Notes under the pieces: generated by a model
What the model was told of the DNA's origin: nothing
The model's database searches: none
The model's input: only the letters and a program-made list of their open reading frames with translations
Shown: in pieces, positions 24,062-31,893 of the stretch
Layout of the letters: every line of letters begins with the position of its first letter
How positions within the stretch are numbered: position 1 is the stretch's first letter
Made by a program: the position numbers and the translations under genes
NCBI GenBank assembly: GCA_039961635.1
Contig: JABRWB010000031.1
Location: forward strand, 1 to 64,000
Direction of reading: 5' to 3'
From: a bacterium
GTDB taxonomy: Bacteria; 4484-113; JAGGVC01
Length of the DNA: 64,000 nt

Positions 24062-24619
24062 TTAATGCTGATCCAACCCAAGCCCCAAATCGTCATCGGC
24101 GTCGATTTCATAGGTCTTGTCGTGCCCGGATACGATCATCGCGCGAACACCAAGCTTGTGTACAAGTTCCGCCCCTTCGTGGCCGGTGTTTGCAAGGCCA
24201 AGGAATCCGGCGGAATAGAGAGCAAGAAAAACGACGCTTGTAATGACGAACGCGGCGTGTCCCGGTTTTTTTCTGGGCAGAGTGAACGCCGCGGTGATCA
24301 CAGCGTACAGCGCGAGCAGCCCGGTGAAAAGATTCCGCGTTGCTTCGCCAAGCTCCTCGTGATGTTCAAGCACCGCATTGATTTGCGGCGTCCGGTCCAC
24401 AAGCTCTCCTCCGGCCTCGCCGCTTGAAACCGCAAGGTACAATCCTACGGTTCCGACAGCGAGCACTGCCAGCGCGGCGCCCGCGAACGCCTTGGAATTC
24501 GATCTAAACGCGATCGACATAACAATCAAAACCGGCACGACCGCAAGGGCGCCTATCGGCAAATGAACAAGCAGGGGATGAATCGCATCCCAAGGCTGCA
24601 TCGGCGGAATTTGAAACAT
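24062..24619 (-). CDS. DUF2231-family membrane protein
   Basis: This 185-residue inner-membrane protein starts with the family hallmark HPLLVHLPIGAL around residues 14-25 and has four hydrophobic segments. Conserved histidines lie in LEHHEELGE and NTGHEGAELVHKLG. The family is uncharacterised; the paired histidines have led to suggestions of heme or metal binding, but that is not established. GGAG lies about eight bases upstream of the ATG. It follows the rubrerythrin gene in the same direction with an 88-base gap, so co-expression with an oxidative-stress protein is possible. Confidence 0.8.
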   Translation of the reverse strand: MFQIPPMQPWDAIHPLLVHLPIGALAVVPVLIVMSIAFRSNSKAFAGAALAVLAVGTVGLYLAVSSGEAGGELVDRTPQINAVLEHHEELGEATRNLFTGLLALYAVITAAFTLPRKKPGHAAFVITSVVFLALYSAGFLGLANTGHEGAELVHKLGVRAMIVSGHDKTYEIDADDDLGLGLDQH

Positions 24620-24707
24620 TTATTCACTCCGTTACGGGATTAGGTGCTCGGGCAAGTCAATACATGAATACTATTGCGTGTTGAGCTGAACAAAGGATTT
24701 GCCCTGC

Positions 24708-25373
24708 CTAGGTGACCTTTATGTATTTCTCGCCCAGGGTGAAGCAGACGATACATTTGGCGAAGTCTATCTTGGCCACCGTGTAACTGCATGTCGGGCA
24801 AACAAAAAACTCGCGCCCCCCACCCTTCCATTGGTCGAGCGTTTCCTTCGCCTTGAGGAAGAATTTCAGGATCTGCTCCTCGCCGCTCTTCGCGTAATTG
24901 AAGGTTTTCATCGCGTCCTTGTTTCCTTCGTCGCGCGCCTTGCCCAAAAGCGAGGGATACAGGGTTTCGGCCCCGTCTTTTGCAAACTTAATGGCCGCAT
25001 CCAGGTTCTCCCTGATGGATTTGACTTCCGGCGCGGCCGCGCTTGCGGACGGAGTGCCGCCGCATTTTTCAATCGCCTCGGCGTGGTTGCGAACTTGGAA
25101 CTCCTTGGACTTCGCGGCCGCCCTGAACAGGCTGGCCAGCTTGCCTATGCCCTCTTCGTCCGCTTTCTTTGCAAATGCAAGATACCTTTGACGCGCGTTT
25201 TCCTCCCTGGAGTAAACTGCTTTCAGGTTGTCCAGTGTGGTTGTAGCCGCCGCGAGCGCTTCGTATTTGCGCGGCGCGCAATATGGATAAAGCCCGAACT
25301 TCCGCGCCGCGGCGTCAACGAAAACACCAAGCGAAAAGGCCAAAAACCTTCTTCGCGATTTTGAACCGTCCAT
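24708..25373 (-). CDS. Rubrerythrin with a twin-arginine-like N-terminus
   Basis: Rubrerythrins use a diiron site to reduce hydrogen peroxide. The ferritin-like four-helix domain (about residues 40-165) shows the iron-ligand pattern SREENARQRY, EFQVRNHAEAI and SGEEQILKFF. A C-terminal rubredoxin-like domain follows with two CxxC pairs, CPTC and CIVC. The N-terminus begins with SRRRFLAF, which fits the twin-arginine (Tat) signal core although the following hydrophobic stretch is short and contains an Asp. If real, the protein would be exported folded with its metals. GGAGG precedes the ATG by about seven bases, so this N-terminus is translated. Export should be tested before it is assumed. Confidence 0.85.
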   Translation of the reverse strand: MDGSKSRRRFLAFSLGVFVDAAARKFGLYPYCAPRKYEALAAATTTLDNLKAVYSREENARQRYLAFAKKADEEGIGKLASLFRAAAKSKEFQVRNHAEAIEKCGGTPSASAAAPEVKSIRENLDAAIKFAKDGAETLYPSLLGKARDEGNKDAMKTFNYAKSGEEQILKFFLKAKETLDQWKGGGREFFVCPTCSYTVAKIDFAKCIVCFTLGEKYIKVT

Positions 25374-27485: not shown

Positions 27486-29195
27486 CTAGAATTCCCAGAC
27501 GGTTTTAAGAAAGATTCTGAAGCCCTCGCTGTTGAAGTTCGGAACGAAATCCAAGTTGGAGTCGAAGAATTCCGCGCCCAGCGTAACAGGAAATCCGCCA
27601 ACGTCGAAATTGAGCCTCGACGAGATGGTGTTCCAGTCGCCGTTATACATTGCGCCCGCTCCGCTGTCCGCTTCGGTCTTTGAGTACGCAACATCGGCTT
27701 TGAACGAGCCGAAGTCGCCAGCCCAGCCGAACCGCCATGTGTCCTGCGAAATGCCGCTTGACGATCCTTGCGTTCCGCCAAAGCCCTGATCCCATTCGGC
27801 GAACTCGCCGCCGATGGAAATCGAATGATTCTGGAAAATTCCCCAGCTTAGATCCGCCGTGACGATGTTTTCGCTGACATCGCTTGCGCCGCCCGCCGTA
27901 GTGCTTTCCCGGTACCATTCGCCGAGCGTTAAATCAATGACGTCAGAAAATGGAACCCAAAGCGAAGCCCGGAACGAATCCTGGGTTTGGGGCAATATCG
28001 GCTGCAACGCGCCCGCGGTAGGGGTAGCCGAAGTCGCCGTGTCATCGGTCGTTTGTCTTGAGTACTTGCCTGTAAGTTTGGCCTGTCCCAGACCGAATTC
28101 CGCGTCAACGTACCATTTGTCGGTTTTCGGTTCCTCCGGCCTTATAAACGGCGCAAGGTCGGAAGCAGTCAGGTCAAGTCTCGTTTTGATTTGAGAGAAT
28201 CCCGGATCTTCAAGCATCAGTCTGGACAAATCCCACTCCGCGGCTTCATAGCCGACTTGCAGTTTGCGGACAACCGAATCGCTTTTCCAGCCGAAATATG
28301 CCGAGTACTTGCGTCCTTCATCCAGATGTGTGTTGAGAATGGGCGAGCCGGTATATCTGCTGCTTCTCAAATCGAATCCGCCGAACCAGGGATTGCCGGG
28401 GCCGCCGTACTTGACGCCAAGTTTGACTTCATCCGCGGTCAGGTCGTTTTCAAGTCCCGACGCCGCGTCCTGCCATCGCTTCATATAGTCGCCGCGGACG
28501 CGCCACTGCTCGTCAAACCTGTAGTCCGCCCGGAATTTGAATCCATTGGCGGAGGCGCCGTCGAATCCCAGAGGAGCACTCGTGAAGGTGTCGAAGTGGT
28601 AATCCGCCCTCCATTCGATCCCGTCGCAATAATCTGACATATAGCTGAGTTTGAAATGCTCCGCGTCGTATTCCGGAAGCGCCGGCACGGACAAACCACG
28701 GTTGACATCATGCTTGAAGTAGCTGCCCGAAAGACCCGTGGAAGCGATTTCGTTTATGCCCCCGCCATACCAAATGTGGTCGGATTCTACAAGTTGGTAA
28801 CCCGCAAAAACGTCCGCGACCGATGCGTGGCCGTGCTGTCGGATGAAACCCCAGATTTTTCCGGCATCCAGGCCGAGTGCGGCGCCCGCGCGGTAGTTGT
28901 TCACCGTCGAAATCCTACCGTCCGACGACCAGTAAAAACCGGTTCCGCCCGGCGCATAAAGGTGCCAGTCGCCGGATAGCGCGTCAGGCATCCGAGTATT
29001 TCTTTCCGTGGCGAACTCCTGGCCGTCGTTTACATCCCGCGCACCGATTTCCGGGGCGAGCAGCCCCTGGATACCTAGAGCTTCCATGAACAAAGCCGCG
29101 TTTTCCTCATCCATCGCAGACGAGTCCTGCGCGACGGCAACCGACGAAACGCCGTAAGCAAAAAGCAACAACGCAATCAAGTATCTCAAGCTCAT
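27486..29195 (-). CDS. Outer-membrane beta-barrel protein of a porin-cytochrome cassette (MtrB/PioB-like role)
   Basis: This 569-residue protein has a signal peptide (residues 1-22, cleavage near VAVAQ) and then an alternation of aromatic/Gly-rich strands and polar loops throughout, ending in TVWEF, the aromatic terminal-strand signature of outer-membrane barrels. It contains a single cysteine in the mature part (SDYCDG) and lacks the N-terminal CxxC of Shewanella MtrB. Its place right behind an MtrA/DmsE-type decaheme gene (nine-base gap, GGAG Shine-Dalgarno) indicates that it is the barrel that holds the cytochrome in the outer membrane. Strand number is probably near 26, but I did not model it. 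The function as a conduit is inferred from context; sequence similarity to MtrB was not measured. Confidence 0.75.
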
Positions 29196-29204
29196 TGGTG
29201 GCTC

Positions 29205-30119
29205 CTATTTGATGAAGAGAGCGCTTGAATTCGATCCGTGAACCTGGCTGTGGCAGCCCGCGGTCCAACAGGTCGGGCCGGGATTGTGGTTGACCTTGTC
29301 CGCATGACAGCTGATGCACAAGCTTCTGCCCGGACGCCGGAGCAGGTTGAAAGTGCCGGATGCATGCGGGCTGTGGCAGTTAAGGCACTGCCTTCCGGAT
29401 GCGTCGCCGTATTCGCTAACGTGCTGGAACTGGTAGGGCTGGCGTGCGAACTCGTGGCAGCGTCCGCATGTTTCCGCGGGTGTTTCTTCACGCCAGAGCG
29501 ACGGGTTGTCGCCGTGGGGATTGTGGCAGTCAACGCAGAAAAAGTCGCCCTGCTTGACTGGATGAGCGGAAATGCCGGATTTGAACTGGCTCATCACCTG
29601 CTTATGGCACGACGCGCAAAGATCGTTTTTGGGCTGGCGGAGCTGGTTTTCGTGCGAAGCAGGGGAATGGGGGTCGTGGCACTTCGCACAGCCGATGCCG
29701 TGGTTCGCATGCCTGTTGCCCGCCCAAACGGAGCGAGTGGCGACCTGCTTGTGGCAGTCCAGACAGACCGAAGAGAATGTTTCAACGGTGTCGCCCTGGA
29801 AATTGACAATCTTCCTTTCGCCGGACTCGTTCGTGAAATTCGCCATATGCAAGGAACCCGGCCCATGGCACATCTCGCAGCCTTTGACGCTGGCGGGAAG
29901 ATCCGGTTTGCCCAGCGTCAACGCGTGCTTCGTACCGAGGTAACCTACCTTGTAGTCCGAATGGCACATAAGGCATTGCGTCGCGCCAAGATATTCCGCC
30001 CCTTCTTCCGCGAGAAGAATGCGCGGGTCGGGCGGAGGATCCTTGGCAACAGCCAGTCCGGCCGCAAGGGAAACCGCGGCCACAGCAAGCGCCATCGTCA
30101 AGAGCCGAGTCCTAGTCAC
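29205..30119 (-). CDS. Decaheme c-type cytochrome, MtrA/DmsE type
   Basis: This periplasmic electron carrier has ten heme-attachment motifs in about 304 residues. Nine are CXXCH: CLMCH, CEMCH (followed by GPGSLH as in the MtrA/DmsE family), CLDCH, CAKCH, CASCH, CVDCH, CGRCH, CLNCH and CISCH. The last is CWTAGCH, a CX4CH variant. Around 20 further histidines supply distal ligands. The N-terminus has a signal peptide ending near LAVAK. I place the start at the GTG at 30119 because AAGGAG lies eight bases upstream; a longer reading from 30170 has no such site. It is followed by the barrel gene and preceded by the triheme gene. It would span the barrel and pass electrons across the outer membrane. 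Confidence 0.92.
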   Translation of the reverse strand: MTRTRLLTMALAVAAVSLAAGLAVAKDPPPDPRILLAEEGAEYLGATQCLMCHSDYKVGYLGTKHALTLGKPDLPASVKGCEMCHGPGSLHMANFTNESGERKIVNFQGDTVETFSSVCLDCHKQVATRSVWAGNRHANHGIGCAKCHDPHSPASHENQLRQPKNDLCASCHKQVMSQFKSGISAHPVKQGDFFCVDCHNPHGDNPSLWREETPAETCGRCHEFARQPYQFQHVSEYGDASGRQCLNCHSPHASGTFNLLRRPGRSLCISCHADKVNHNPGPTCWTAGCHSQVHGSNSSALFIK

Positions 30120-30182
30120 TTGGTTGCTCCTTAGCTCAAAACTGCAATCAGTCCAAAAACGCACGGCCAAAAAGCCGGGCGG

Positions 30183-31802
30183 CTATTCTCCGAAGCCGAG
30201 GGTGATCGGTCCGAATCCACGGTGCTCAACCCTCGAATTGTCGGTATATGCTGCGGATAATGGAACAACGGAAAATACATCGAAATCCAGATCAGTAGGA
30301 CTTGCGCCACCGGAATCTCCCGAAACGAGCTTGCGCCGGAAGACGACAGTCCATCTGCCGTCAGCGTACATAGAGGTGACGCTTACCGTAGCCGACGGAT
30401 CCTCCGCTGAAACCGCGTCATTCAGGAAAAATCCGGGTGAAGTTTCACCGCCGGTTGGCGAATAGGGGCTTCCGTCCGGACGTTCGTATTGATTTGAATC
30501 GGGATTCCAGGTTGCCAAAGTGCCGGAAGCCAGGTACTCCGCAATGTCCGATTCGAATAAAGGCGCGCCTTGTGCATCGGCCGGGATCAAATACAACGGA
30601 CGGTCGGCCTCGGCGGCCTGGGAAGCAAGCCGCAGCGAGCTGTGGCTGGCGAATCCCTCGGGCTCGTTGGGCTTCACCAGTGCCTGGCCGTCGTGGTGGT
30701 GGGACTGACCTCCCGGAATATAGTCGTCGACCGCTAGCGCAAGATGCGCGCTGGAGGCCGCTCCCCACTGCCAAATGTCGAAACTTGTACCCTCGGCGGC
30801 GGCCATATCCGAACCGCCGTAGAAGGTGCCGATTCCATCTTTCCAGTCGGTTCCATGACAAACCGCGCAATTCGACTTCATTTGCGCCGTCAAGACCATA
30901 TGGGCGAAAACGGGATTGTCGTCCTGGTTGCCGGCGGCCTTGTCATGGCATATCGTGCAGGATGAAAGCGGGCTGACCGTGTCGGAAATCGTCACGCCCC
31001 CGTGTGAATCCGGATTGGGAGTGGTGCGGTGGCAGGTGGTTGTGCAACCGGCCTCGGCGAATGTCTTGCCGCCGCGCCCCGGCCCGTCAACTATCGGGAA
31101 CTGAATGAAGAAACGGTCCTCATTACCCGACTTAGTCCAGTTTCCCGCACTGTAAGTCCAAGCCTCGCCCTCGGCGTCTTCGGTCTCGTCCGGCCAGCTT
31201 GCCCAAATCAAAAGCTCATCGTCGTCGTAAACGCTTTTAAGCTCAAACGGTGCAATCGAGTTGCCAATCGCGCCGTGGCTTCCGGTTGATGGATTGCCGG
31301 TGGGAGTAAACGACGCGCCTTCAACCGACGACCAGTCCGAAGAAGCATCGAAATACGAATCCACGCTTTCCACCAATTTGGAAACAACGTCCGCATCCAC
31401 CGTTCCGACTTCGCGAACCTGCACGCTCAAAGTCGCCTGTACCGACCTGCCGAACGCATCAGTGGCGGTGGCGGTAATCTCGTAGGTTCCAGGCTGCAAA
31501 GCTGTCCATTTGACGATTGACCCTGCCGCGGAATCCTCTTGGCCGGAAAATTCGCCGCTTGCCGCGTTACCGTCGCTCCAAGTGTACGTAACCGCGACCG
31601 ATTCGGGATTGTTGACGGAAAGTGTAAAGGTGACTTCGTTACCCGCGCGTATCGTCGTCGCGGATGGCAGAATGGGATCCGTGATCGATATCCTCTGTCC
31701 GCCGTAGAGCGTAAAATCGTTATCCGCCCTCCTGCAGGCAAACTGGGCGGCAAACAGCAAAAGAACGGCAATCGCCAACGGCACAAACAATCGCTTAGGC
31801 AT
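30183..31802 (-). CDS. Triheme c-type cytochrome with Ig-like and EB_dh-like domains, probable lipoprotein
   Basis: This 539-residue protein leads the porin-cytochrome cassette. A hydrophobic signal (residues 5-22) ends in FAC at Cys23, a somewhat irregular lipobox. Next comes an Ig/PKD-like beta domain (about 35-130: DPILPSATTIRAGNEVTF, TYTWSDG, PGTYEITATATDAFG), then a large domain with VYDDDELLIWASWPDE and DRFFIQFPI, which resemble the ethylbenzene-dehydrogenase-type cytochrome domain (EB_dh). Heme motifs are CTTTCH (Cys253, CX3CH), CTICH (Cys282) and CAVCH (Cys312). A His-rich SHHHDG follows near residue 368. I infer a surface-exposed or periplasmic terminal cytochrome replacing MtrC/OmcA. 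Start is ATG with GGAGG five bases upstream. EB_dh proteins can also hold heme b; this is not shown here. Confidence 0.8.
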   Translation of the reverse strand: MPKRLFVPLAIAVLLLFAAQFACRRADNDFTLYGGQRISITDPILPSATTIRAGNEVTFTLSVNNPESVAVTYTWSDGNAASGEFSGQEDSAAGSIVKWTALQPGTYEITATATDAFGRSVQATLSVQVREVGTVDADVVSKLVESVDSYFDASSDWSSVEGASFTPTGNPSTGSHGAIGNSIAPFELKSVYDDDELLIWASWPDETEDAEGEAWTYSAGNWTKSGNEDRFFIQFPIVDGPGRGGKTFAEAGCTTTCHRTTPNPDSHGGVTISDTVSPLSSCTICHDKAAGNQDDNPVFAHMVLTAQMKSNCAVCHGTDWKDGIGTFYGGSDMAAAEGTSFDIWQWGAASSAHLALAVDDYIPGGQSHHHDGQALVKPNEPEGFASHSSLRLASQAAEADRPLYLIPADAQGAPLFESDIAEYLASGTLATWNPDSNQYERPDGSPYSPTGGETSPGFFLNDAVSAEDPSATVSVTSMYADGRWTVVFRRKLVSGDSGGASPTDLDFDVFSVVPLSAAYTDNSRVEHRGFGPITLGFGE

Positions 31803-31864: not shown

Positions 31865-31893
31865 ATAGTAGTTTTACTATCAGTTGCTGTCAA
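31865..31893 (-). promoter_or_regulatory. Consensus sigma70 promoter with overlapping operator for the porin-cytochrome operon
   Basis: On the minus strand TTGACA (31893-31888), a 17-bp spacer and TACTAT (31870-31865). A perfect inverted repeat ATAGTA-N4-TACTAT (31880-31865) covers the -10 and the adjacent spacer, in a position suited to repression. Transcription would start about 55 bases before the first gene. Confidence 0.75.

Follow-up and report, generated by a model that had tools for sequence, protein, structure and literature searches.

The window, which is the whole stretch of bacterial DNA analysed here (64,000 nucleotides), contains a cluster of three genes for a triheme cytochrome, a decaheme cytochrome and an outer-membrane beta-barrel. 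The decaheme cytochrome and the barrel are well supported by sequence comparison as the core of a diverged MtrAB-type conduit. This assignment follows from the recurrence of the decaheme–barrel pair in other genomes, the homology of the decaheme to MtrA, and the match of the barrel family to MtrB-type barrels. The best explanation of the whole cluster, to which we give somewhat better than even chances, is a diverged MtrAB/DmsEF-type conduit with the triheme protein in the place of MtrC. The unusual part is the triheme EB_dh protein beside the conduit, and the core is of the known MtrAB kind in diverged form.

Gene cluster

The features of the cluster are as follows (window positions).
27486-29195, minus strand: outer-membrane beta-barrel, 569 aa (relative in genome G001, profile match, strand density)
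29205-30119, minus strand: MtrA/DmsE-type decaheme cytochrome c (TIGR03508, NF041028, PDB 6r2q_A)
29250-29270, minus strand: CWTAGCH, tenth heme motif of the decaheme (CX4CH; motif scan and alignment to MtrA)
30183-31802, minus strand: triheme cytochrome (signal peptide, PKD domain, EB_dh domain interrupted by heme motifs)
about 30309-31340, minus strand: EB_dh domain of the triheme protein (residues 155-498, Pfam 2.2e-20)
30855-30869, minus strand: heme motif 3, CAVCH (CXXCH), in the inserted segment
30945-30959, minus strand: heme motif 2, CTICH (CXXCH), in the inserted segment
31029-31046, minus strand: heme motif 1, CTTTCH (CX3CH)
about 31419-31664, minus strand: PKD domain of the triheme protein (residues 47-128, Pfam 2e-9)
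31865-31893, minus strand: promoter-like site TTGACA-17-TACTAT

As originally predicted, the three genes are co-directional within 27486-31802; they lie on the minus strand, the triheme gene first, then the decaheme and the barrel. The intergenic gaps are 63 nt (triheme/decaheme) and 9 nt (decaheme/barrel), and Shine-Dalgarno-like sequences precede both downstream genes. The promoter-like site is located about 60 nt upstream of the triheme gene. Shuffled sequence has such sites at least as often, so that TTGACA-17-TACTAT alone is no evidence, and it is suggestive by position only. A weak terminator-like hairpin lies inside the 63-nt gap, and the frequency of such hairpins is likewise not above chance. 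The cluster is flanked by hflX upstream and thiD downstream.

The hairpin in this gap, together with the restriction of the three-gene block to one genome, would fit chance neighbours, with the triheme gene as a separate unit of its own function beside the conduit pair. We regard this as very improbable, as the genes share one strand, the gap is short, the flanking HflX and ThiD are unrelated housekeeping proteins, and both distant triheme homologues also lie among electron-transfer genes.

The G+C content of the three genes (0.56-0.60) resembles that of the neighbouring genes. Lateral import was considered and set aside; besides the neighbour-like G+C content, the closest decahemes are those of the same family and class. 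Downstream of the cluster (24062-25373, minus strand), a rubrerythrin-like protein adjoins a DUF2231 membrane protein.

Decaheme cytochrome

The start of the decaheme gene was revised from the TTG at 30170, which had been proposed earlier, to a likely GTG at 30119 preceded by AAGGAG. The protein has nine CXXCH motifs and the terminal CWTAGCH. The predicted MtrA/DmsE type is borne out by three matches. The DmsE model TIGR03508 matches over the full length (2.7e-46) with 158 bits, below the cut-off of 192 bits, and the NF041028 (GSU2203) model matches at 3e-49 with 168 bits, below the curated cut-off of 325. The best solved relative is PDB 6r2q_A (2.9e-27), and this alignment covers the whole length, heme for heme, with ten motifs against ten. 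This PDB entry, 6R2Q, holds MtrAB from Shewanella baltica (PMC10654088), and the database copy labels chain A as 'Cystathionine beta-synthase'. Ten spaced motifs in 304 residues, one-for-one with MtrA, are not a chance pattern. An independent Pcc-type origin of the conduit was rejected because the decaheme is homologous to MtrA.

The C-terminal pattern CW[TS]xGCH....HGSN is common to the decaheme relatives of the same class and G381 in the alignment, whereas the MtrA-like proteins of G095, G018 and G015 have CXXCH at the place of the tenth motif. By analogy with heme 10 of MtrA, the CWTAGCH heme is expected to be located at the outer face. The closest decaheme, in G001 of the window's own family, is 57% identical. 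A search of plasmids gave one Photobacterium match and nothing else.

Three relatives have decahemes with an N-terminal extension that carries extra heme motifs, to a total of 12 CXXCH and two CX4CH. The end segment CWTSxCHSDxHGSN looks as if it were duplicated in them.
L090:6922-8130: extended decaheme of G002
L091:6455-7663: extended decaheme of G007
L087:3855-5108: extended decaheme of G008

Barrel protein

The barrel ends in VWEF and does not have the CxxC of Shewanella, and the sequence confirms both of these earlier statements. Only a single cysteine is present after the signal region, and thus no CxxC can be formed. The expected relation to MtrB/PioB was not obtained directly with HMMs; the barrel has no match to PF11854 or TIGR03509, and only weak porin matches were detected. 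NF041027, the model of the GSU2204-type barrel family, does not match it either, and no match was found with the barrel profile against PDB or in a search of viral contigs.

The closest barrel relative in G001 is 37% identical and adjoins the 57%-identical decaheme. The decaheme-adjoining barrels of G002, G005, G007 and G008 fall in the same broad family. According to hhalign, the class-level profile of this family matches MtrB-type barrels of other lineages with 89-90% probability (E ~1e-6, 330-400 columns), whereas comparison barrels gave 0.3%. The matched MtrB-type set contains G095, whose barrel matches PF11854 at 2.1e-8, and this set in turn matches the set holding G018 (PF11854, 6e-109). 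The profile of the window and G001 barrels by itself does not reach MtrB, so the relationship to MtrB rests on the wider barrel family. Amphipathic strand peaks were counted with our own score, which is not a validated predictor, and 26 peaks passed the lower threshold and 22 the stricter one; a barrel of the MtrAB/PioAB/DmsEF kind is expected to have about 26 transmembrane strands. The peak density is 4.0 per 100 residues, as against 0-1.2 in four non-barrel proteins of the window. Single-sequence AlphaFold2 models of the barrel (pLDDT 32) and the triheme protein (pLDDT 38) were unusable. From the profile comparisons, the barrel is probably a distant MtrB-type sleeve.

Triheme protein

The original prediction of a PKD/Ig domain and an EB_dh domain in the triheme protein was upheld; against PF09459 (EB_dh) the protein scores 74.1 bits with a gathering score of 33.3. 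Three c-type motifs are present as stated, and only two of them are CXXCH, the first being CX3CH. The description as lipoprotein-like is not supported, because AQFA-C, the putative lipobox, departs from the standard pattern at position -3. A non-canonical lipobox is possible. No match to TIGR03507 (OmcA/MtrC) was found, and PF22113 gave only 0.0045, below its cut-off.

Full-length homologues among 385 genomes are limited to G195 and G050, each 33% identical, which belong to one phylum other than that of the window, represented by four genomes. When the phyla of G195/G050, G294, G252 and G222 and 380 genomes of the G316 phylum were searched with the triheme profile, no further full-length homologue was detected. 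An alignment scan of wider genome contigs gave only short, distant EB_dh-like matches, and a search of plasmids gave none. The window, G195 and G050 proteins have CX3CH first and then two CXXCH motifs, whereas the distant mono-heme EB_dh proteins of G209, G106 and G363 have the CX3CH motif only. Both cysteines and the histidine of CX3CH are invariant in these six aligned proteins, and the CXXCH motifs are confined to the triheme three. One reading of the triheme family is therefore that an EB_dh domain with a single putative covalent heme received an insertion of about 60 residues that carries two more hemes. Covalent heme binding by CX3-4CH motifs is stated in PMC4245776, which cites Stevens 2004. 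Together with the two inserted CXXCH motifs, CX3CH suggests that the triheme protein holds three covalent hemes. The G363 mono-heme gene lies beside cytochrome b-like and Rieske-type-like genes (L042:119-3504, minus strand), and these neighbours suggest that the mono-heme CX3CH EB_dh proteins may be cytochrome partners of a bc-type complex.

The best solved relative of the triheme protein is NXR-C (PDB 7b04_C, 6.1e-15), and the next is EbdC. In NXR-C, the heme b ligands are Met155 and Lys305 (PMC8387239). All six aligned proteins keep a methionine upstream of the D-x-W-x-W motif. In the lysine region, the window protein has HRG and the other five have Lys; loss of the heme-b lysine ligand is possible, in a stretch of uncertain alignment.

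The fold shared with NXR-C and EbdC raises an alternative, that the triheme protein is a gamma-type molybdenum-enzyme subunit and the cluster a DmsEFAB-like extracellular reductase with its catalytic subunits encoded elsewhere. DmsEF is itself an MtrAB-type core (PMC8805035). The molybdenum-enzyme link is hinted at by G050 only, where the triheme gene has a molybdopterin oxidoreductase gene on one side. The N-terminus of that oxidoreductase shows no export signal, and a molybdopterin reductase gene was found neither next to the window cluster nor within the 15 kb read around the G195 homologue. The arginine in the heme-b lysine region and the CX3CH motif also argue against such a subunit. The model of the type II DMSO reductase gamma subunit (TIGR03477) gives 20 bits with a cut-off of 170. 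We consider this alternative unlikely, though less so than chance adjacency.

Gene neighbourhoods in other genomes

The predicted recurrence was found for a part of the cluster. The decaheme–barrel pair recurs in at least six genomes (G001, G002, G005, G007, G008 and G095, among others), whereas the three-gene block was found only in the window genome. No triheme homologue was found in nine class relatives, including G001, the closest relative with the pair.

Other genes occupy the surroundings of the pair in other genomes. In G361, an OmcA/MtrC gene immediately precedes the decaheme gene, in G095 one comes after the barrel, and a 9-heme gene is located upstream of the decaheme in G015, G235 and G381. 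Within the window's own class, the upstream slot has other occupants. That of G007, directly upstream of the pair, is a PKD-PKD-nonaheme protein whose start is twin-arginine-like and which has an apparent lipobox. With the fragment in G008, it is another unnamed candidate for an outer cytochrome.
L091:4279-6264, plus strand: PKD-PKD-nonaheme protein of G007, outer-cytochrome candidate
L087:5333-6007, minus strand: 69%-identical nonaheme fragment of G008, same slot upstream of the decaheme
At another locus of G008 (L089:7464-9464, minus strand), a heme-free 666-aa lipoprotein with no clear family match is encoded directly upstream of a decaheme–barrel pair. In the window genome, the OmcA/MtrC model gave no match at 1e-5 among the three of 13 first-look candidates that were scored.

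In support of a conduit, both full-length triheme homologues adjoin electron-transfer genes. In G195, a cytochrome b, a multiheme cytochrome c and a 929-aa OmcA/MtrC-type decaheme (TIGR03507, 5.9e-54, somewhat below the cut-off) are encoded ahead of the triheme gene. In G050, the side away from the molybdopterin oxidoreductase gene encodes a HEAT-repeat lipoprotein, a 464-aa barrel-like protein with no family match, and 12-heme and 9-heme cytochromes.

Proposed conduit

For the positions of the two cytochromes, the flow and the partner, we infer the following. The decaheme would sit inside the barrel and carry electrons across the outer membrane as an insulated wire, as in MtrAB. The triheme protein would dock onto the decaheme's outer end, working in place of MtrC. 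Its two CXXCH hemes would take electrons from heme 10, or give them to it, and the heme of the EB_dh domain would exchange electrons with an extracellular partner. MtrAB-type cores run in both directions (PMC8805035), and the flow may go either way here. The window genome (G000, contig C53, L108:4296-8096, plus strand) also has consecutive genes for an NrfH-like tetraheme quinol dehydrogenase, NrfA and an octaheme cytochrome. They are a possible quinol-oxidising entry to periplasmic electron transfer and could in principle feed the wire from the inner side.

The triheme EB_dh protein was found where MtrC/OmcA is expected, as predicted, since its gene holds the upstream slot of mtrC in mtrCAB. 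Its outer role is plausible. The chief rival is a PioAB/MtoAB-like conduit without an outer cytochrome, in which the triheme protein would be a periplasmic electron partner like the HiPIP PioC. The localisation is the main weakness of the best explanation, as the standard lipobox is missing in the window protein and in both full-length homologues, against an anchored surface protein. Some relatives have the decaheme–barrel pair without any cytochrome neighbour. N-terminal Ig/TIG/PKD domains, however, are more usual in surface proteins, and G007 has its PKD-nonaheme lipoprotein in this slot. The outer cytochrome is absent from some mtr clusters (PMC4245776), and pioAB is also encoded with a periplasmic partner, but the gene order here is that of mtrCAB and not of pioABC, whose partner gene is the last (PMC10654088). 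A periplasmic role is the less probable one, with a real minority share, and an MtrC-like role of the triheme protein is preferred.

A bolder reading is that the surface contact of the conduit is a covalent triheme form of the EB_dh domain, related to electron-transfer subunits of molybdenum enzymes, instead of MtrC, which would make it a distinct outer terminus; we hold this tentatively, at slightly under even chances. Such a terminus might be made for a specific partner, soluble or surface-bound, and not for mineral oxides. The conduit had been predicted to be distinct. The unusual upstream triheme protein beside the decaheme–barrel core agrees with this, whereas independence from MtrAB does not hold; the probable distant relationship of the barrel to MtrB makes the conduit a diverged member of the MtrAB kind.

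Variation of the outer partner in conduits is already recognised (PMC8805035, PMC4245776, PMC5566968), and one proposal treats MtrAB as a core that is combined with varying outer cytochromes (PMC8805035). In a literature search of partial coverage, no conduit with an EB_dh triheme protein was found. A core beside such a protein would widen the MtrAB-core idea to include an unrelated heme domain, and this in a bacterial lineage that has been little sampled. The triheme-neighboured core would also give annotators a marker for conduits missed by the MtrC and MtrB models. The series of EB_dh domains from heme b to one CX3CH heme and to three hemes makes a covalent multiheme origin testable.

Comparison with known systems

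The cluster resembles MtrCAB/MtrAB of Shewanella (6R2Q) in the order outer cytochrome, decaheme, barrel, in the whole-length homology of the decaheme, and probably in the barrel, which the family profile places as a distant relative and our own score estimates at a similar strand count. It differs in that the outer candidate is a triheme PKD/EB_dh protein and not the decaheme MtrC, the barrel is short (569 aa) and outside PF11854 and TIGR03509, and the tenth heme motif is CX4CH. PioAB/MtoAB and DmsEF share the DmsE/MtrA-family decaheme and the barrel, a conduit without MtrC. Unlike them, the window cluster has an extra upstream triheme EB_dh gene and lacks genes for a HiPIP, MtoD or an adjacent DMSO reductase. 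The GSU2203-GSU2204 type (NF041028, NF041027) is similar in the decaheme (3e-49), whereas the score stays under the cut-off (168 against 325 bits) and NF041027 misses the barrel.

Pcc (OmbB-OmaB-OmcB), PCC3 and PCC4 likewise combine a porin, a periplasmic cytochrome and often an outer cytochrome of variable heme number, and atypical CX3-4CH motifs are reported in Pcc outer cytochromes. The decaheme and barrel of the window probably belong with MtrAB rather than with Pcc, whose proteins are unrelated to it; the grouping of the decaheme with MtrA speaks against Pcc membership. NXR-C (7b04_C) and EbdC (2ivf_C) have in common with the triheme protein the EB_dh domain and, in the alignment, the Met and the W-x-W motif. 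They hold one heme b with Met/Lys ligands, whereas the window protein has CX3CH with two inserted CXXCH motifs and an N-terminal PKD domain.
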